This document shows, piece after piece, positions 8,812 to 21,425 of a stretch of 64,000 nt of DNA. The position numbers and the translations under genes were made by a program. How positions within the stretch are numbered: position 1 is the first letter of the stretch; the number at the start of each line of letters is the position of its first letter. Where the stretch lies: contig CALAJV010000010.1 of the NCBI GenBank assembly GCA_937922805.1, forward strand, positions 417,610 through 481,609, given 5' to 3'. The DNA comes from an uncultured Acidimicrobiales bacterium (GTDB lineage Bacteria; Actinomycetota; Acidimicrobiia; Acidimicrobiales; SZUA-35). The notes beneath the pieces were generated by a model. That model did no database searches. It worked only from the letters and a program-made list of their open reading frames with translations, and had not been told where the DNA came from.

Positions 8812-9100
8812 TATGGCGTCCTCCTGTATTGGATCGTTACGAGGCAGCAATTCTTACCTCGATTTGTACCCATTCTTCTAGCTAGCGTTTCTAGCTGGTT
8901 CTTGTCTAAGTCTCCCGTAGGTTCGATCCATCCCCAATGGGGACGAGTCCCCGGCACGGATACTCCTACTTGGGAGAGGCTTCGGGGGACAGCTCCCCAT
9001 TCTCGTGCCCTAGCCATGTCCAGTAAGGTGATGACTAGTTAGTTGGTCGATTGCGCAGCAGACATTAAACAAGCTGCGCCGGACGTTGGGTAAGCGGGGC
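8812..9100. other. Intergenic region between immunity-like and toxin-like genes
   Basis: These 289 bases hold no convincing gene. They contain several strong nested hairpins at 8932-9009 (listed separately). A possible promoter for the large gene lies near 9043-9071: TTGGTC, 17 bases, TAAACA. If that promoter is used, the hairpins lie upstream of the transcript; a more distal start would put them in its leader. Confidence 0.5.
8932..9009 (+). other. Cluster of strong, partly competing hairpins (possible structured RNA)
   Basis: CCCC (8932-8935) can pair with GGGG (8939-8942), which can instead form the 14-base hairpin GGGGAC-GA-GTCCCC (8939-8952). Directly after it, GGCACG (8953-8958) pairs with CGTGCC (9004-9009) and encloses two smaller hairpins, CTCC/GGAG and GGGG/CCCC. 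The result is a compact three-way-junction-like design with mutually exclusive pairings. I recognise no Rfam family. Strand and transcription are unknown. Confidence 0.35.
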
Positions 9101-12100
9101 ATGAGCGGGCAAGTTAGCGCTAAAACTGAAGACCTAGAGGTGTTCTTCACCCACGGGGAGGGTTACTACAACTCTCTGGAGGCCACATTAGAGCGGGTGG
9201 TAGCGCAACAGGCTCAAACGCGAGCAACCACGGGCCACAGCGTTGGAACCAACTCGGCCACTCCGTTCCGGGAGCTACTCTCAAAAGCGGTCGTTAACAG
9301 TGCTTTTGTCGAAGAGATCTTTATTGCTCTGGTCAACTACGGCGAGGGTCAAAATGTAAAGGTTGCCTCGGCCGAAAAAGTCGACATGACGCTGGAAGAA
9401 GTTGGGTTGGCAGTTGGCGACGTCACCTTTGGTGAAGGTGACGAAGGCACCGCGGCCGAGCAGCTGGCCCAAGCAGCAGCGATTGCGAGGGCCCGAGGTG
9501 ATCACGATGAAGCTGAGTCGCTGCTGGCGCAGGCTGCGCAAGCTCAGACTATCGAAGATCTGATTGCGGCGGGGGCTAGCGAGCAGTCTGCTGAGGTGCT
9601 TGCCGCTGGTCCACCGGAAATGGTTGAAGCGGTGATGGCAGGCGAAATCAACGCCTACGTAGCCAGCCAAATTCCGCAACTTGAACCGTGGTTGCAAGAC
9701 CAAGTGGTATCGGGTGAAATGAGCTTCGCCGCCGCTCGGCGGGTTGACAATGCAGGCATCGCTGACAACGAAGGCGTGGCCCTCGCTGTCATCAACGGTG
9801 ACCTCACCGCGACCCAGGCCATTGCCATGGCCGACTATCCAAATAGCGTCATCGACGACGTGTTGAACGGTGATGTATCACTCGAGTTGGTTTCCGAAGT
9901 GATGAGCGGTCCATTCGCGGCCCGCGATGCCGCAGGCGACGGCGACTACGACCGAGCCGCAGTGTTAACCATGAGCCCCGAAGTTCAGTCGGCCTATACC
10001 GTTGGCCAGTATTTTGACGCCATCTTCGATGACGACAAAATAAACGACATGGACGACAAAATCGACCTCTTGGCCCAGCCAGGCGGCATGGACGGACTTC
10101 GAGACCGAATTGCAAGCGAATACGGTCTCGAAGGTTCAGCCCTCGATCAAGCAGTCGCCGATGTTGAAATTGCGATTGGCTACTACGCCGATCCAGACAA
10201 TCTTGATGCGCTAATAGCTATGGACGACGGGAACGCTAAGAACCCAAACAACGACTGGAAAGCCGAAGGGGCTGACGCCATTCTGCGAACCGCCCACTTG
10301 ACATTCGACTCTGACAGTGCAGCCGGTGCTCATGTGCGGTCTCTTGCTATCGAAGACTACGTGGCCGATCAAGGCACCGGTTTCAGCGGTGGCGACCTCC
10401 GAGATGAGTTTAACGGTGAGGGCAAGCTGGGCGAAGTAACGCTTACTGATCAGCAGGATCTAATGGAAGCCTTCGTAGCGTTCAATGTCGCCGAGGTAAA
10501 GCTCGACGCCGAAGCCGGATACCCGCTTCCTCAGGAGGGCCAAGGTCTGATCAATCTCAACGACGTCGCCTTTTGGGCTGAGCGGCACGGCGACGACAAT
10601 CAGGCATTTCGCGATATGGCCGCCGCCACCTACGCTGATCAAGCGGTCGATCTTCAGCTGGGATCACCCGATGACTACTCGAGCAACATGCTGGCGGCAG
10701 TTCTGAGCGCAAGTGCGTTGTTCATGTATAGTCCAGAGGATCGTCCAGACTTTGTCGCCACCATGGACGGCGTCCGAGAGGTACCCCTGGGCGACGGTAC
10801 GGTCGGCGTATTCTCAGAATCAGCGCTGTTTGGAAACGCTCTGTCGCTGGACAAGGTATTCGATGAGGCATCGTCAAACGGAAGCTACTCGATCCCGCAT
10901 TTTTGGTTCGACTATGATCAGCGTCGAGACATCGTGGCCCAAACGATGGAAGCAATGGTTGATCAGGCTCCGCCGGGAGTCACCCTAGGTGATGGGCATA
11001 GCAATTTCGTTACGGCAGTCTTTTCTACTGCCTCCCCAGATGCCTACCGGCAACGAGGCGATGAAGTAAATCCCAACTCAGCTCCCACTTTTGACACAAC
11101 CTTTACCCGATCGATGGCGGGACTTCTAGCGCTCAACGCCAATCCGGGCGACGCTAATGCCCAAGAGAGTGAAACGGTTCGGCTAGAAGAAATCTTGCTC
11201 GACCCAAATGGGATTTCGCTTCTAACCAACACCCAAGGGTATGAGCACGCTCGAGTAGACGCCGAAACTCGATCCCAGCTTGTGTACACGACGCTGTTTG
11301 GTCGATACGAGACAGAGACCCTTGACTCCGAAGTTTCCCGCTGGACGGTCGAAGATTTCCACGATGGGACCGTCGAAGCCGATTACAACGTAGACGTTGC
11401 TCGGAACGCGACGTTTGCCATGACTGGGCAGCCGCTTACGTCGGCTGAAGAAGCTCAGATTCGGGAAATAACGCTGGCCGACCAAGACAAAGATTTCGAC
11501 GATCAGCTTTTTGGGTTCAACACCGACACCAATGCCAACATGCGAGCCCAGCTAATAGTTCTGGCCCTTGACCACGGTTGGGACGCCGACACGATCGGGG
11601 AGACCGACAACGGTTGGGAAAACCCGACCGTCAACCAGGCATATTTGGAACGGATTGCCGAAGTAAATATAAACGGCGGAGAACCACTAACCGACGAGCA
11701 GAAAGCCCGTCTAGCTGAAATCGTTACCGACGATAACGCGTCGAGGGTATTGGGCCTCGAGTCGGAATTTCAGTACGGCGACATGGTTCGAGTGCTCGAA
11801 AAAGTCATTATTGGCGACTGGACCGTCGATACGTTCAATGATGACTTTGGTGATGGCGACCTCATTCTAAATCCTGCGTTGAACTCGCTCTTCGCTAACG
11901 ATGGCTTCGATCTGTACTCGCCTGACGGAGCGATTGGATCGCAACTAGTTGGACTCGAAGGCGACACCGAATCCTTTGTCTTTACCGCTTTACAGATCGA
12001 CCCCGATGGTCCCCAAGCGGCCGCGGCGAGGGCCATTATCGACCGGATCGAAACTGAGGGCCAGTTTGCCGATGCGGCGTCGCTTGAGGCTGTGCCAGTG

Positions 12101-14872
12101 CAGCTCAACTTTGGCGACGGAAACCGGGGCACAATTGTTCTGTTCAAAGTTCTCGATGAAAACGGCAAACCACTTGGGCTCGTAGACCAACAAGGTTTTT
12201 ACTACAACGACTCTCAACATTGGTGGAAAGAGACAACCCTGCCTCGGGCCGCAGTGACGGTTCCGACCGTGCTTGGCGGGCAAAAGGTCAGCGATCTTGA
12301 ATTCGGCCACGGCGACGAACCAAGCTTTCACGTCTTCAAGACCGAAGACTTCGACGGACCTGGAGTATTCGAGTACGTCGTCACCGGTATTGGTGTTGTC
12401 GGGGGTGTCGTCCTCATCGTCGGAAGTGCCGGAACGGCAACGCCGCTGGTCATGGGAACTGGCTTCGCTCTGGTTGCCACCGCCAGCGGCTACCAGATCA
12501 TCAAGAGCGTTGATGAGCTACAAGGCCACGCCAGTCGGGGCGGAAGCTACAGCTTGAGCGACCCGTATGCTCGAGGGGCTTGGATCAATATCGGAGCAAA
12601 TGCGTTCGCGATCGCCACTGCTGGTACTACTGCGTTGAGCTCAACTGGGGTACGAGGTTTCGCCATCGTCGGTCCCAACGGTGTGGCTCAGCCAACGACC
12701 GCGGTTACTAGATTTAACCGAGTCGGCGGCTGGGTTGGCAATGCCGCTGACGGGTACGACGTGTGGGGAATCATCTCGAATCCAGACCTCTCAGACGGTG
12801 AAAAGGTATGGGCCCTAACCCAGATGGGTCTCTGGGCCGCCCCCGGCTTCATCGCTAGCAACTTGGTGACCTCGAACGGGGGTCCAACCGGTCCCGAGGT
12901 GCCAAACCCCGATGGCACCCGCATCGATGCGTTCGACCCGGCCTCCCAAGGGCTCTCACAAACAGACTTCAACCGGTTGAAAGGCCAGACATTCTCCGAC
13001 TTCCTGGCTGATTACGCTGACACATACCCCAACGGTGCGCTTTCGACCGAGCATCTGCGAGGCAGGTTCCTTCGGGGCGAGCGCATAAATCCAAATGGTC
13101 GAAGTCCAAAGTTTGTTCACACAGTCGAACCGCCATCAACAGTTCGAGCACCACAGGTAGAAGGGGCCGAGCTAGTTCTGATCCCTACCGTTGGAGAACA
13201 TCCAACGTTTGATGCTGCTGCCGCCGCCCGAGTCAACGACCCGAGTAGACCAGAGCTAACCCAACAGCAAAAAGTCGATGCGAGCCGAGCGCTCGGCGAG
13301 GTCGGCGGAGAAGTTGCCATCGTAAACTTCGTTACCGAACGGTTCGGCCCTGATGCCAAACTCACCACCTTGGACGGCCAACCGATTGACCTTAGCGCTG
13401 CTGGAATTGGCGACTTTAATCAAGACGGAGCATTAGGGGGTACGGGCCAATTCGATCAGGCGGTACTTGTAGAAGTTGATGGCCAAACCTACGTGTTGCT
13501 GAATGAAGCCAAGGGAGGTTCCGGAAACTTCTCGACCCGAAAGATCAACGGTCAAGAGTTCGAACAAGGAACCTGGGAACATACCCAATCGACGCTCGAT
13601 GACATGGCAGATGTCAACCCGGAAGCTGCTGCGCTGATAGAAGACGCGATAGCGAACGGCACACTCATCTACACCACATCGCGAGTAGCCCTCGACTCGA
13701 ACGGAAACGTGACGTCGATTCGAGTGAACGAGTTCGACGTAACCGGATACGGGTCGCCATCGAGTGGCGCTGCTGACGGAACTGTCTCGGTGGCGGCGAA
13801 TGCTACTGGTGGTTCCGGCGGACCCGGCAGCCCGGGCGGGAGTGGCGCTACCACAACAGCCAATCTGGCCGATGGCCCAATTGAGGTAGACGGGGTCCCA
13901 TTCAATCAAGATCAACGGTTGACGGCAGAACAACAAGTACAGGTTGAGCAGTCGTCAACCTTCCAAACTAACGGCATGGCCACGGCCGATATCAACGGGT
14001 TCTTGGCTACACCACAGGGCCAACAGATGCTTGATGCCGCATCCCAAGCCGCTCCTGGTACTTCCGATACTGCTATCTACAGGCGAGTTCAAGGATGGTT
14101 GGAGTCTGGCGTGGAAGCTCCCACTACCGTTGCGGTGGATGAACCGCTAGTAAAGATCGTGCCGACCGGCGAGTCCATCTCGGCCTACTCTCCCTACTTT
14201 GCTCCGCTATCGGCGCTGCAAGCAGCCGAGGCCGAAGGGGTTTCGCTGGCCGACTATCTAGGATTGCCAGCTGGGAGTCATGCCCCACAGTACGACCTTT
14301 ACGTGATTATGCCAGTAGATCAAGGTGCAGTTGGATTTGAATCAACCATTGCTCCAACCACTGAATTGGATGGTCTCATTCAAACCACCGGAGGCGGAAC
14401 ACAAATAGTTGTGCCCGACCGAAGCCAGTTCACTGAGCCGGTCAGGCTAGCCACCCTTCCTGAATCCGGTCCGCTACCCGATATCGAGTTACCAGAGTCA
14501 GTGTGGGAGTTGGGTCCTACGCTGCGAGGCACGGTCGTTCAAAATTCACTAGGAGTAACTGACTATCGGGAATGGGACTCGGCTGGCGCCGAGTTCGGCG
14601 GAGACGTGAACATTGATTTCGTTCGGGGCGACAATGTTGTCGCTGTTGTTTCGGTCGACCCGGCAAGTTCGACAGCCCAAACCCGGATGGAACGAAAAAT
14701 CGACGCGCTGGCAGCCGAAGGGCACACGATCGAGATTTCTGGCGCTGTCACTGTTGAAGCCAATGTGACGCTAGATATTAGGGTTCCTGAAGGCCAAGCG
14801 GCCGAACTTTCTTCGCTGGTCCTTTACGGCCAGCAACAAGGCATTACTGTACAGATCGTAGAGTTCCCATGA
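9101..14872 (+). CDS. Very large DUF4781-like polymorphic toxin with nuclease-like C-terminal region
   Basis: The protein has 1,923 residues from ATG 9101 (a TTG at 9086 is possible). There is no signal peptide. The first ~90 residues are helical and WXG100-like in character (inference), followed by long acidic helical repeats to about residue 1080. Residues ~1088-1135 hold two hydrophobic glycine-rich stretches followed by a helical segment like DUF4781 toxin scaffolds. Residues ~1370-1560 form a nuclease-like module with D1452, E1469 and K1471 (FDQAV, then LNEAKGG), which fits a PD-(D/E)XK site. A Gly/Ser/Pro linker near 1570 leads to a further ~350-residue C-terminal region with no family I can name. 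The next gene overlaps its stop by four bases. Secretion route and target are unknown. Confidence 0.65.
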   Translation: MSGQVSAKTEDLEVFFTHGEGYYNSLEATLERVVAQQAQTRATTGHSVGTNSATPFRELLSKAVVNSAFVEEIFIALVNYGEGQNVKVASAEKVDMTLEEVGLAVGDVTFGEGDEGTAAEQLAQAAAIARARGDHDEAESLLAQAAQAQTIEDLIAAGASEQSAEVLAAGPPEMVEAVMAGEINAYVASQIPQLEPWLQDQVVSGEMSFAAARRVDNAGIADNEGVALAVINGDLTATQAIAMADYPNSVIDDVLNGDVSLELVSEVMSGPFAARDAAGDGDYDRAAVLTMSPEVQSAYTVGQYFDAIFDDDKINDMDDKIDLLAQPGGMDGLRDRIASEYGLEGSALDQAVADVEIAIGYYADPDNLDALIAMDDGNAKNPNNDWKAEGADAILRTAHLTFDSDSAAGAHVRSLAIEDYVADQGTGFSGGDLRDEFNGEGKLGEVTLTDQQDLMEAFVAFNVAEVKLDAEAGYPLPQEGQGLINLNDVAFWAERHGDDNQAFRDMAAATYADQAVDLQLGSPDDYSSNMLAAVLSASALFMYSPEDRPDFVATMDGVREVPLGDGTVGVFSESALFGNALSLDKVFDEASSNGSYSIPHFWFDYDQRRDIVAQTMEAMVDQAPPGVTLGDGHSNFVTAVFSTASPDAYRQRGDEVNPNSAPTFDTTFTRSMAGLLALNANPGDANAQESETVRLEEILLDPNGISLLTNTQGYEHARVDAETRSQLVYTTLFGRYETETLDSEVSRWTVEDFHDGTVEADYNVDVARNATFAMTGQPLTSAEEAQIREITLADQDKDFDDQLFGFNTDTNANMRAQLIVLALDHGWDADTIGETDNGWENPTVNQAYLERIAEVNINGGEPLTDEQKARLAEIVTDDNASRVLGLESEFQYGDMVRVLEKVIIGDWTVDTFNDDFGDGDLILNPALNSLFANDGFDLYSPDGAIGSQLVGLEGDTESFVFTALQIDPDGPQAAAARAIIDRIETEGQFADAASLEAVPVQLNFGDGNRGTIVLFKVLDENGKPLGLVDQQGFYYNDSQHWWKETTLPRAAVTVPTVLGGQKVSDLEFGHGDEPSFHVFKTEDFDGPGVFEYVVTGIGVVGGVVLIVGSAGTATPLVMGTGFALVATASGYQIIKSVDELQGHASRGGSYSLSDPYARGAWINIGANAFAIATAGTTALSSTGVRGFAIVGPNGVAQPTTAVTRFNRVGGWVGNAADGYDVWGIISNPDLSDGEKVWALTQMGLWAAPGFIASNLVTSNGGPTGPEVPNPDGTRIDAFDPASQGLSQTDFNRLKGQTFSDFLADYADTYPNGALSTEHLRGRFLRGERINPNGRSPKFVHTVEPPSTVRAPQVEGAELVLIPTVGEHPTFDAAAAARVNDPSRPELTQQQKVDASRALGEVGGEVAIVNFVTERFGPDAKLTTLDGQPIDLSAAGIGDFNQDGALGGTGQFDQAVLVEVDGQTYVLLNEAKGGSGNFSTRKINGQEFEQGTWEHTQSTLDDMADVNPEAAALIEDAIANGTLIYTTSRVALDSNGNVTSIRVNEFDVTGYGSPSSGAADGTVSVAANATGGSGGPGSPGGSGATTTANLADGPIEVDGVPFNQDQRLTAEQQVQVEQSSTFQTNGMATADINGFLATPQGQQMLDAASQAAPGTSDTAIYRRVQGWLESGVEAPTTVAVDEPLVKIVPTGESISAYSPYFAPLSALQAAEAEGVSLADYLGLPAGSHAPQYDLYVIMPVDQGAVGFESTIAPTTELDGLIQTTGGGTQIVVPDRSQFTEPVRLATLPESGPLPDIELPESVWELGPTLRGTVVQNSLGVTDYREWDSAGAEFGGDVNIDFVRGDNVVAVVSVDPASSTAQTRMERKIDALAAEGHTIEISGAVTVEANVTLDIRVPEGQAAELSSLVLYGQQQGITVQIVEFP

Positions 14873-16044
14873 TCCTCACCTATGTTTGTTTCGAACCTAA
14901 CTCGCTGAGCCCTCGGTCATTTGTCGACCTCATAACCGGCCAAGCCTTGGGGTTTACCCCTACCGTGCTTCGATCAGACCAGGTCGGTCGAGATACTGAG
15001 CTCGCCTTTGATGAACGATCACGGAACGCATTGGCGGCGGAAACTCAGTCGGCATGGGCCAGAGTCGAGGGTCCGGACGGGTCGTTGCAGCTTCTTGAAA
15101 TGGGTCGGTGGCCACTTCAAGTGATGATTCTCACTACTCAGGATCTGCCGCCAAGAGACTTTCTGGACGCTGCATCGGCCTACGACGGATTTACAACGTG
15201 GGTTGTTGGTGACGGCGAAGACATGTTTTGGCAGTCGGCTGATCAGACCAACACCTACGACGTGCATGGTCTTAATTGGGAGCATCTACCGACAATCAAC
15301 GACCCAATTTTCGATCGACCTAAGATCGATACGTCTGCAAATCCCGGACGGGGAACACCGATTCCAGGAATGTGGCTTTGGGCTGGAGCTGAAGTTTGCT
15401 TCGGACCAGGAGCCTTCAAAATTTTCGATCGACTCAAGGTGCTAGAGGTTCCGTGTCTGCAGATGGTGGAGCGCCACGACAGCTCAGTGGTCGTCAGTTT
15501 CTATCAAGTTGGAGACGACGTACCTACCATCCGGGCTGCACAGCAAGCCTTGCGTTCATGGCTTGACTACGACGGTGTCGAAGTAAAGGCAGACCGCCTT
15601 GCTGGCCTATTTCGCGCTAAACCTTCAACCAACGGTCCGACCCAAGACGAGGCCACAGACCGTGCAGTCGCCGAAGCTGACATTTCCGGCGAGCTGGAAT
15701 CATGGTCCAGGCTGTACGCCGTCACTGACATGTTGGAGCAAGTCATCGCTCGTTATGCGGCCGCCCCGGCCGTCCGCCTATTGGCGGCCACGTTGGTACC
15801 GATCATTTCCGATATCAAGGCCGGTCGAATAACGAAACCCATCGGTGTCGATCGATACCCGAGCATGATCCACCTCGAAAACGAGACAAACTTCGCCGAC
15901 TACGTCGACGTAGTAAACGCCCACAGCGAATTTCGGGAGCAAGTAACCGTTGGAGGGGTGCTGACATCCGAGGAAGCAACAATCCTCGAACAGATGCGAC
16001 TACGCCGAGCCCAGCGCGAGGGGAATCGACCAATCGACGGTTGA
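14869..16044 (+). CDS. Uncharacterised protein coupled to the toxin gene, candidate immunity protein
   Basis: This 391-residue protein has its ATG overlapping the toxin stop as ATGA (14869-14872), so translation is probably coupled. No signal peptide or membrane helix is visible. A central aromatic segment, MWLWAGAEVCFGPGAFKIFD, is followed by beta-rich sequence, and the C-terminal third is helical. The central segment vaguely recalls Imm52-type immunity proteins, but I cannot confirm a family. Position and coupling are the main evidence for an immunity or chaperone role. A second effector-associated protein is also possible. Confidence 0.55.
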   Translation: MILTYVCFEPNSLSPRSFVDLITGQALGFTPTVLRSDQVGRDTELAFDERSRNALAAETQSAWARVEGPDGSLQLLEMGRWPLQVMILTTQDLPPRDFLDAASAYDGFTTWVVGDGEDMFWQSADQTNTYDVHGLNWEHLPTINDPIFDRPKIDTSANPGRGTPIPGMWLWAGAEVCFGPGAFKIFDRLKVLEVPCLQMVERHDSSVVVSFYQVGDDVPTIRAAQQALRSWLDYDGVEVKADRLAGLFRAKPSTNGPTQDEATDRAVAEADISGELESWSRLYAVTDMLEQVIARYAAAPAVRLLAATLVPIISDIKAGRITKPIGVDRYPSMIHLENETNFADYVDVVNAHSEFREQVTVGGVLTSEEATILEQMRLRRAQREGNRPIDG

Positions 16045-19259: not shown

Positions 19260-20132
19260 TTACGAACGGCGAAAGCGTGTGTCAGCCACACCAACTACAT
19301 CCGTTTCGATCGCAAGCAGGGAGCCAGCTACAAACCCATCTTTGGACGCACCATAGCTGAGCGTCGTTATGTACAACGTTGTCATGTCCGGTCCGCCAAA
19401 GGCTGGCATCGTCGGGGTTTGGATCGGCAGCTCGATTTGTCTGTCGAGGTGTCCATCGGGGGAGATTCGGGTTACGGCCCATCCAAAGACCGATGCCGAC
19501 CAGTAGTACCCTTCGGAATCTACACATCCGCCGTCTGGGGCGCCCGCTATCTGTTCGTATTGAAAGAATGGTCGTTCGTTGCTGGCGGCCCCAGTTCGGA
19601 GATCATAGTCGTAGAGCCAAATCGTACCGGTTGGGCTATCGGCGAAGTAGAAACGATCGCGGCTCGGATCGAACGCAATTCCGTTTGAGACGCCGATTTC
19701 GGATCGGAGCGTTGTCACCTGACCGTCAGCTTCAACTTGGTGCAGAATGCCAGTTGAGTTGCCGTCGGACACCTCGTGCCACATCGAACCAACAACAAAT
19801 CGACCGGCGGGGTCGCATCGGCCATCGTTCAATCGGTTGCCAATTGCTGGTTCCTCCAACGGCACCCACGGCGAAAAGCTGGCTTGATTCCAGTCGTAGT
19901 ATCCGAGCTGATGTTCAGTGGCGACGAGAAGGACCCCAGGGGAATCCGTCAGTGCAATCGACCCTGGTCTCGACGAAAGATGACCGGTTTGATTGTTCCC
20001 AGATGCTGGCTCATATCGATGAATAGCCAGACCGTCGATATCGACCCAATACAAGACCTCTTCTTCGTCGCTCCACAACGGACATTCGCCGAGCAGCGCA
20101 CCATTGTTCACTTCACACCGGACGGTACTCAT
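19260..20132 (-). CDS. SMP-30/gluconolactonase family protein
   Basis: The 290-residue beta-propeller belongs to the SMP-30/gluconolaconase/LRE family, metal-dependent hydrolases of lactones. ALLGECPLWSDEEEVLYWVDI at the start supplies the metal-binding Glu. GNRLNDGRCDPAGRFVVGSM and GVSNGIAFDPSRDRFYFADS carry the expected Asn and Asp ligands. I chose ATG 20132 because GAGGA lies seven bases before it and the family motif follows at the right distance; an in-frame ATG at 20189 adds 19 residues of unlike sequence. It is divergent from the selenoprotein candidate, whose -35 region overlaps the longer start. Confidence 0.85.
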   Translation of the reverse strand: MSTVRCEVNNGALLGECPLWSDEEEVLYWVDIDGLAIHRYEPASGNNQTGHLSSRPGSIALTDSPGVLLVATEHQLGYYDWNQASFSPWVPLEEPAIGNRLNDGRCDPAGRFVVGSMWHEVSDGNSTGILHQVEADGQVTTLRSEIGVSNGIAFDPSRDRFYFADSPTGTIWLYDYDLRTGAASNERPFFQYEQIAGAPDGGCVDSEGYYWSASVFGWAVTRISPDGHLDRQIELPIQTPTMPAFGGPDMTTLYITTLSYGASKDGFVAGSLLAIETDVVGVADTRFRRS

Positions 20133-20165
20133 CTTGGGGTCCTCGCGTCTATCGTTGGCACCTTC

Positions 20166-20194
20166 TTGGACACCCGTAGTATGGCCCATAGAGT
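20166..20194 (+). promoter_or_regulatory. Promoter of the selenoprotein candidate
   Basis: TTGGAC (20166-20171), 17 bases, TAGAGT (20189-20194), then seven bases to the GTG at 20202. The -35 and -10 spacing is ideal and the transcript would be leaderless. It supports the reading frame that contains the in-frame TGA. Confidence 0.65.
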
Positions 20195-20201
20195 TGTGTA
20201 G

Positions 20202-20759
20202 GTGATAGCGCGACCGCCCATCGGCGAACTGGCCCCGAAAATTGATCTCCTGTCAGCCGATGGCGAGCGTTGGGTTTCAACCGAACAATCGAAACCAACG
20301 ATCGTCATATTTCACCGCCACATCTACTGACTGCCCTGCACCGCCCATGTAATCGCCGTGCGCGATGAACTTGCTAGAACCGGAACTACCGAACAAGTAG
20401 AGGTGGTCGTGGTAACGTTCACCTCCCGTGAGATGGCCATTGCCCACACCAGTCACTTCGGGTTGACCTTCCCAATTCTGCTCGACCCGACCAAAGCTAC
20501 CTATGCTGCGTTCGGGCTCGAACGGGCGACGTTCGGACGGGTATGGGGTTTACGGGCGGCGTGGAAATACTTGCAACTTAGCTTGGCTGGAAAACGACGG
20601 ATGCGAATGCCGACCGGCGAGAGTGGGCCTGTCGAAGACACTCGTCAGCTGGGCGGCGACTTCGTGCTGCGGGACGGGAAACTCTACTGGGGCTATTGGA
20701 GCGAGGGTTCCGAGGATCGGCCGGACCCAGCAGCCGTTTTGGCGCAGTGTCTCAGATGA
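20202..20759 (+). CDS. Peroxiredoxin-like (AhpC/TSA family 2) probable selenoprotein, UGA at codon 43
   Basis: Reading from GTG 20202 through an in-frame TGA at 20328-20330 gives one continuous 185-residue thioredoxin-fold protein. It starts PPIGELAPKIDLLSADGERW, has the active-site strand TIVIFHRHIY-U-LPC, and ends in VLRDGKLYWGYWS as in AhpC-TSA_2 proteins. The TGA falls exactly where the family has the first Cys of its CxxC redox motif, so the site would be U43-x-x-C46. A leaderless promoter precedes the GTG. After the TGA, GCAC (20338-20341) and GTGC (20358-20361) can close a hairpin with G20349 in its loop, a weak bacterial SECIS candidate. The alternatives are a nonsense-mutated pseudogene, or a start at GTG 20358 that would remove the redox centre. 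No sel genes are in the window. Confidence 0.75.
20338..20361 (+). promoter_or_regulatory. Possible bacterial SECIS hairpin
   Basis: GCAC and GTGC pair. After one C-C mismatch, GC/GC pairs follow, leaving a ten-base loop with a G about 19 bases past the UGA. The distance suits bacterial SECIS elements, but the stem is short and the loop G is not at the usual first or second position. Low confidence without folding and comparison. Confidence 0.3.
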
Positions 20760-20764
20760 GTTGC

Positions 20765-20770
20765 TAGAGT
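20765..20770 (+). promoter_or_regulatory. -10 box of leaderless pyrE promoter
   Basis: TAGAGT, identical to the box of the preceding gene, lies seven bases before GTG 20778. Confidence 0.55.
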
Positions 20771-20777
20771 CGCAACC

Positions 20778-21425
20778 GTGGGTGATCAAACAGCGTACAA
20801 GGCCGACTTCATCGATTTCATGAGGCAGGCAGAAGTCCTTACGTTCGGACAGTTCGTTACCAAGAGTGGTCGAGAGACTCCGTACTTCATTAACACCGGG
20901 TTATATAGCACCGGCGACCAGATCCGTCGCCTCGGCAGTTTCTACGCTGACGCGATTCTTGATCAGTTCGGAACCAACTTTGATGTGATCTTCGGCCCTG
21001 CTTACAAAGGTATTCCTCTCGTTGTTTCGACAGCGGCAGCGTTGGCTGAGCGTGGCCACAGTGTCAATTATTGCTTCAATCGCAAAGAGGTTAAGGATCA
21101 CGGCGAAGGCGGGCTGTTCGTTGGTCACCAGTTGGCCGATCATGATCGGGTCTTGATCGTTGAAGACATTACCACTGCCGGCACAGCCATCAGAGAAGTA
21201 GTTCCGCTATTGAAGGCCGAAGCCAACATCTCGCTAGCTGGCCTTATTGTGTCGGTTGACCGTTGTGAAAAGGGGCCCGACGGACGGGCCGCCCTTTCTG
21301 TCTTGGCTGAAGAGTTCAGGATGAGGACCCATGCCATCGTGACGGTCCACGAAATAATGGCGCAACTCGAAGACCAGGGCCAGGTACAACAGATCGAGCA
21401 GTATCTCTCAAAGTACGGAGCTTAG
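20778..21425 (+). CDS. pyrE: Orotate phosphoribosyltransferase
   Basis: This 215-residue enzyme joins orotate to PRPP to make orotidine 5'-phosphate in pyrimidine synthesis. Visible features are the N-terminal [21 protein letters not shown], the loop [10 protein letters not shown], the flexible-loop region [12 protein letters not shown] and the PRPP-binding motif [14 protein letters not shown]. Length and motifs are typical. It lies 18 bases after the selenoprotein candidate but has its own leaderless promoter, so it can be expressed alone. Confidence 0.93.

Follow-up and report, generated by a model that had tools for sequence, protein, structure and literature searches.

The question raised by this locus was whether a TGA inside an otherwise open reading frame is a stop codon, an error, or a codon for selenocysteine (Sec). 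The gene lies in the window, the 64,000-nucleotide stretch of DNA from an uncultured Acidimicrobiales bacterium that we analyzed, and an earlier note on the sequence had proposed that the TGA takes the place of the first Cys in a CxxC redox motif. We found the frame as described (Table 1). Its GTG is immediately 3' of an in-frame TAG, and it is open on both sides of a single internal TGA at residue 43 (...IFHRHIY-U-LPC-TAH...), giving 185 codons; the other two forward frames across the same interval have 6 and 5 stops. The promoter-like hexamers were also at the positions claimed for them. A consensus promoter scan of 20050-20800 gave two overlapping sites compared to 0.3 in shuffled sequences, one of them a 16-base-spacer variant (TGGACA-TAGAGT) that overlaps the TTGGAC/TAGAGT pair. 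Because the -10 hexamer is only 7 bases before the GTG, the mRNA may be leaderless. We consider it very probable that the gene encodes a Sec-containing thiol/selenol oxidoreductase, and we predict that the organism's own SelA-SelB-SelC-SelD insert Sec at its UGA. The selenoprotein interpretation is supported by the presence of sel genes, the existence of Cys homologues, and the recurrence of the TGA in relatives.

Table 1. Features of the predicted selenoprotein gene in the window, and other TGA-containing AhpC/TSA-type frames in the source genome (G000).
Feature	Position	Strand	Details
Promoter-like hexamers	20166..20194	+	TTGGAC 20166-20171, 17 bases, TAGAGT 20189-20194, 7 bases, GTG
Predicted selenoprotein CDS	20202..20759	+	185 residues with UGA 20328 as Sec; GTG start; stop TGA 20757-20759
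In-frame UGA, predicted Sec codon	20328..20330	+	U43 of U-L-P-C motif
Cys46 codon, UxxC partner residue	20337..20339	+	invariant in 71-row alignment
Predicted bacterial SECIS hairpin	20349..20370	+	core stem 20352-20356/20362-20366, loop CGUGC 20357-20361; two outer pairs across internal loop
133-aa ORF after UGA	20358..20759	+	product for this frame in the mechanical ORF list
L110, AhpC/TSA-type frame	G000:C39:10608-10916	-	TGA in TPGU
L111, AhpC/TSA-type frame	G000:C3:440105-440407	+	TGA in TPGU
L112, AhpC/TSA-type frame	G000:C1:133952-134245	+	TGA in PYUGC; resembles known UGC-containing redox selenoproteins
L114, AhpC/TSA-type frame	G000:C33:59763-60008	-	TGA in HWUPYC (YRGHW-UPYC); second UxxC protein

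The source genome, whose completeness is given as 94%, has the machinery for Sec insertion. A check for sel genes elsewhere in the genome, suggested in the earlier note, found all four components. SelA was detected with 343.5 bits and is adjoined by a 572-aa SelB open reading frame that overlaps the SelA end by four bases. A tRNA-Sec scored above the Rfam cut-off and was called by ARAGORN as tRNA-SeC with anticodon TCA. SelD was above its cut-off and has an in-frame TGA of its own, in GAGUGCK (L020:1501-2520, minus strand). A profile search of the genome (E≤1) hit ten places; a single in-frame TGA is present in five, one of which is the window gene. The four other TGA frames (E values of 2.4e-11, 2.0e-9, 1.1e-4, and 1.8e-3) were all above Pfam's AhpC/TSA cut-off. 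L110 and L111 are likely to be Sec-type peroxiredoxins. With five such frames, four of them in addition to the window gene, UGA in redox motifs is common in this genome.

We analyzed the same codon in relatives, taking an even sample of 397 of the order's genomes from a larger group and a homologue threshold of E≤1e-8. A homologue was found in 49 genomes, and 48 of the 49 had exactly one in-frame TGA. The TGA falls in the U43 column in all 48 carriers, the window included; that 47 other genomes of the order have their only in-frame TGA there is beyond chance. The remaining homologue, in G177 (77% complete), has Cys instead (TCSPC), and neither a SelA nor a tRNA-Sec match was found in that genome. 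SelA was detected in 244 of the 397 genomes: 45 of the 48 TGA carriers, compared to 199 of the 349 others (Fisher p ~8e-8, with the kinship of the genomes uncorrected). A tRNA-Sec was found in all three carriers with no SelA match (G018, G063, and G376).

At the level of the phylum, a search with the NCBIfam profile NF040769 (E≤1e-15) gave 54 matches in 50 of 396 genomes, and 42 of the 54 had one in-frame TGA. The matches in 30 loci, 28 of them non-repeat, were read residue by residue; the 28 had U (21 loci) or C (7 loci) in the U43 column, and the match in G402 stops short of the motif. Two genomes with the Sec form (G563 and G647) had no SelA match and do have tRNA-Sec. In a third (G464, 98% complete), neither SelA nor tRNA-Sec was found, nor a SelB over the cut-off. 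Altogether, one alignment column has Sec in 68 rows and Cys in 7, so the TGA at 20328 sits at the position of a redox Cys in some homologues, as had been claimed. Homologues with Cys at position 43 are thus known from seven loci and from a database protein, P0059. A scan for close relatives on genome contigs, using a single protein, gave no confirmed relative.

The earlier note had also described a weak SECIS-like hairpin after the UGA. The bacterial SECIS (bSECIS) criteria in a review (PMC13188914) are a loop of 3-9 nt with G in its first two positions, an upper stem of 4-16 bp, a loop that starts 16-37 nt after the UGA, and a minimum free energy no higher than -7.5 kcal/mol; some putative elements fall outside this model. 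The window hairpin has a 5-bp stem and the loop CGUGC, starting 26 nt past the UGA, all within the loop, stem, and spacing limits. Its energy (-5.9 kcal/mol) falls short of the -7.5 limit. The core alone has -5.3 kcal/mol, and the 48-base stretch prefers another fold, at -8.8. A 45-base stretch of the window has a weaker fold than its synonymous versions have on average (-7.4 compared to -10.8; z = +0.88); the mean z over the 48 genes of the order was -0.47, and over 21 phylum-level genes it was -1.13. Because folding of single sequences does not single out the window hairpin, the argument for it rests on conservation of the pairs across genes and not on total energy.

The Sec genes have a hairpin in columns 22-29/35-42 (39 genes, the window's group), 22-28/33-39 (19 phylum-level genes), or 18-24/28-34 (11 others). 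The consensus loops start with CGU, AGU, and GU, respectively, so that a G and then a U come early, an order that the published model (PMC13188914) mostly wants. In the 39-gene group, 75.0% of the cells were paired, compared to 68.0% in shuffled alignments, and 26 cells had changed on both sides, which was reached in 0 of 500 shuffles. The count of pairs changed on both sides was reached by 159 of the 500. The 19-gene group gave 97.0% compared to 86.9%, with 11 both-side cells, and no shuffle of 500 reached it on any measure. For the 11-gene group the values were 90.9% and 86.2% (reached by 31 of 500), and its covariation score of 0.223 was hardly above that of one slid control (0.216).

Since the hairpin RNA is also protein-coding, we used as the null resampling of synonymous codons in each gene, 1000 times. 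The number of pairs kept exceeded the resampled number in the groups of 39 genes (7.08 compared to 5.91), 19 genes (6.79 compared to 4.57), and 11 genes (6.36 compared to 5.39), and was reached in 0 of 1000 resamplings in each. In the seven Cys genes there was no excess conservation (3.71 pairs compared to 3.38; reached by 232 of 1000). Under a scripted version of the bSECIS criteria, the Sec genes passed in 27 of 39, 18 of 19, and 10 of 11 cases and the Cys genes in 2 of 7; the corresponding rates for resampled codons were 50%, 43%, 57%, and 38%. This is a clean comparative test of SECIS function: genes with the UGA conserve the hairpin more than synonymous choice explains, and the seven Cys genes do not. 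RNAalifold predicted pairs for the 19-gene group and none for the window's 39-gene group, and an Rfam search at the locus gave one match only, at chance level (E = 6.4). The weak hairpin of the window has a conserved, covarying counterpart in relatives, and its location is refined to about 20349-20370, where the relatives have their conserved hairpin.

With Cys written for Sec, the best Pfam match was PF00578 (41.4 bits; cut-off 26), followed by PF13911 (33.5 bits; cut-off 27), and passing both curated cut-offs places the protein in the AhpC/TSA superfamily. It matched NF040769, the SelL-related redox proteins, with 115.1 bits (E = 2.6e-33), below the cut-off of 120, and all 71 members of our protein alignment match that profile at E≤0.001. 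The structure was predicted with a mean pLDDT of 93.1, and the half upstream of the UGA was modelled together with the rest at a pLDDT of 93-98. This half is also conserved among relatives, with R39 invariant and G21 and H40 nearly so in the 71 rows. We conclude that the protein has a predicted peroxiredoxin/thioredoxin fold and is near the SelL-related redox proteins and prostamide/prostaglandin F synthase. The earlier note used the label of AhpC/TSA family 2; the protein is better put as a relative of SelL-related and of prostamide/PGF-synthase-like proteins.

Comparison with known systems defines the branch further. The SelL-related proteins share with it an R-H-x-x-[U/C]-x-x-C centre, of which both Sec and Cys forms occur; they have FLRHxG-UxFC, whereas the close kin of the window protein mostly have FHRHxx-ULPC or IRHRY-ULPC. 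Selenoprotein L is defined by two Sec in UxxU, unlike the window's ULPC motif with one TGA inside the frame. Nor is the motif the TxxC/TxxU of classical peroxiredoxins: U43 is opposite Thr, and C46 opposite the Cys of 2ywn that we take to be the peroxidatic one. Human prostamide/prostaglandin F synthase (PDB 9us9, 9usa) is Cys-based and 16% identical to the window protein, the likeness being in fold and profile only. Given the likeness to the SelL-related proteins and to this human enzyme, which reduces prostaglandin, the substrate would be worth identifying.

A review (PMC13188914) lists Prx-like thiol:disulfide oxidoreductase selenoproteins with PF00578 and UxxC or UxxU, which resemble the window protein in having Sec in UxxC and an AhpC/TSA-type domain; on our reading, L114 would be nearer to this type. 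Two other entries, described in PMC13188914 and PMC9312934, are a PRX-like selenoprotein with UxxS (cd02970/pfam13911), set apart from the window's UxxC by that description although both match pfam13911, and a Redoxin form with UxxC (PF08534). Prx-like 1 to 3 and SelL appear in an ocean survey (PMC2398784), and a Sargasso survey has a Prx-like UxxC family (PMC1088965). Since Prx-like UxxC selenoproteins are already in reviews and surveys, this kind of selenoprotein is known; what is new is the mis-annotated, almost all-Sec branch. No paper on the branch was found in the open-access literature, as searched by title and start of abstract, and a search of the two reviews (PMC13188914, PMC9312934) for names of Actinomycetota found none. 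The branch adds a well-supported predicted selenoprotein for Actinomycetota.

We built an unrooted tree of 75 proteins, whose bootstrap had not settled. It was made without L073 (cut by a contig edge), L077 (a homologue with no TGA), and L099 and L100 (which duplicate G134 and the window), and the 71-row alignment also leaves out L082, L089, L096, and L108. The window's clade (support 100/99) has 49 rows, which are the window, 46 others from the order, and two from elsewhere in the phylum, and all 49 are Sec forms. The seven Cys rows fall outside it, and at least three changes between Sec and Cys are needed. Two genomes of one genus, G518 and G538, have sister proteins in the tree (100/98). 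G538 has the Sec form with SelA, SelB, and tRNA-Sec; G518 has the Cys form, no match for any of the three, and retains 4 of the 7 hairpin pairs. This natural experiment is one case and not a rule. Loss of the Sec machinery as a general cause of Cys forms was rejected, since SelA is present in 10 of the 12 phylum-level genomes that have a match with no TGA, and missing only from G518 and G713.

A database search with the window protein gave 55 proteins, 48 short and seven of at least 160 aa; those of the seven that have names are fish proteins. Judged from the alignments, the first residue of each of the 48 short homologues corresponds to one of query residues 44-70 and so falls after the UGA; in the closest, P0002 (99% identity), it falls near residue 70. 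The prediction that annotation would start after the TGA and lose the redox centre was thus borne out in every short copy, and the database copies of these genes lack that centre. One of them, P0031, whose name points to a Thermoanaerobaculia MAG, has MPC as its first residues, just past the UGA position, and the branch may for this reason extend beyond Actinomycetota. P0059 (179 aa, FHRHLMCLPC, 35% identity) is the sole Cys form near the window's group among the matches listed. Cys was at the motif in 106 of 107 new matches of at least 160 aa among the matches listed (120 of 1581). UGA-bearing genes would be shortened and so missing from full-length database matches, and the relative frequency of Sec and Cys can therefore not be judged from databases. 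We tentatively consider a broader reading, to which we give somewhat less than an even chance: that a whole selenoprotein clade was missed because gene callers cut off the active site, that Sec is old and nearly fixed in it, and that the Cys forms are secondary, reversing the usual picture of Cys to Sec. Its probability is lowered by the Cys in 106 of those 107 listed matches.

The main alternatives to a selenoprotein are that the gene is broken, that it is shorter than we propose, or that the UGA is read as something else. A single TGA in a single genome, taken alone, would permit a pseudogene or a sequencing error in which a Cys codon has turned into a stop. This explanation is extremely improbable: across 397 genomes, 48 of 49 order-level homologues share the position of the TGA, the frames are open both before and after it, and the hairpin behind it is preserved more than synonymous codon choice explains. 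The recurrence also makes a miscalled Cys codon not credible. The gene might instead be only the part after the UGA, a short protein of 116-133 aa from an internal start. The start sites of the 48 short database homologues agree with this, and gene callers give the same result either way. Conservation of R39, G21, and H40 in the upstream half, the confident modelling of that half (pLDDT 93-98), and full-length Cys relatives such as P0059 all argue against a short protein, which we regard as very unlikely.

The last alternative is near-cognate readthrough, or reading of the UGA as tryptophan. The window gene and many relatives terminate at ordinary TGA stops, the UGA column aligns with Cys and not with Trp, tRNA-Sec, SelA, and SelB are present in the genome, and the Sec and Cys forms of the same-genus pair, G518 and G538, differ in their sel genes. 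We thus give this alternative almost no weight and retain the selenoprotein interpretation. In the selenoprotein, SelB bound to the hairpin at 20349-20370 would bring Sec-tRNA to the UGA at 20328. Sec43, at a helix start in the predicted thioredoxin/peroxiredoxin fold, would attack the substrate; peroxides, endoperoxides, and protein disulfides are the candidates. Cys46 would then resolve the Sec43 adduct as a Se-S bond, and a cellular reductant would reopen the bond.

The window has several other genes near the locus. A gene with a phosphoribosyltransferase domain (PF00156; 20778-21425, plus strand) starts 18 bases past the selenoprotein stop. A tblastn search (E≤1e-6) of the flanks (up to 1.5 kb) at the 48 other loci of the order recovered neither flanking gene, and we therefore make no operon argument. 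Further upstream, positions 9086-14872 (plus strand) encode a 1928-aa protein with DUF4781 as its sole Pfam match, and a 391-aa open reading frame with no Pfam match (14869-16044) overlaps the end of that gene.
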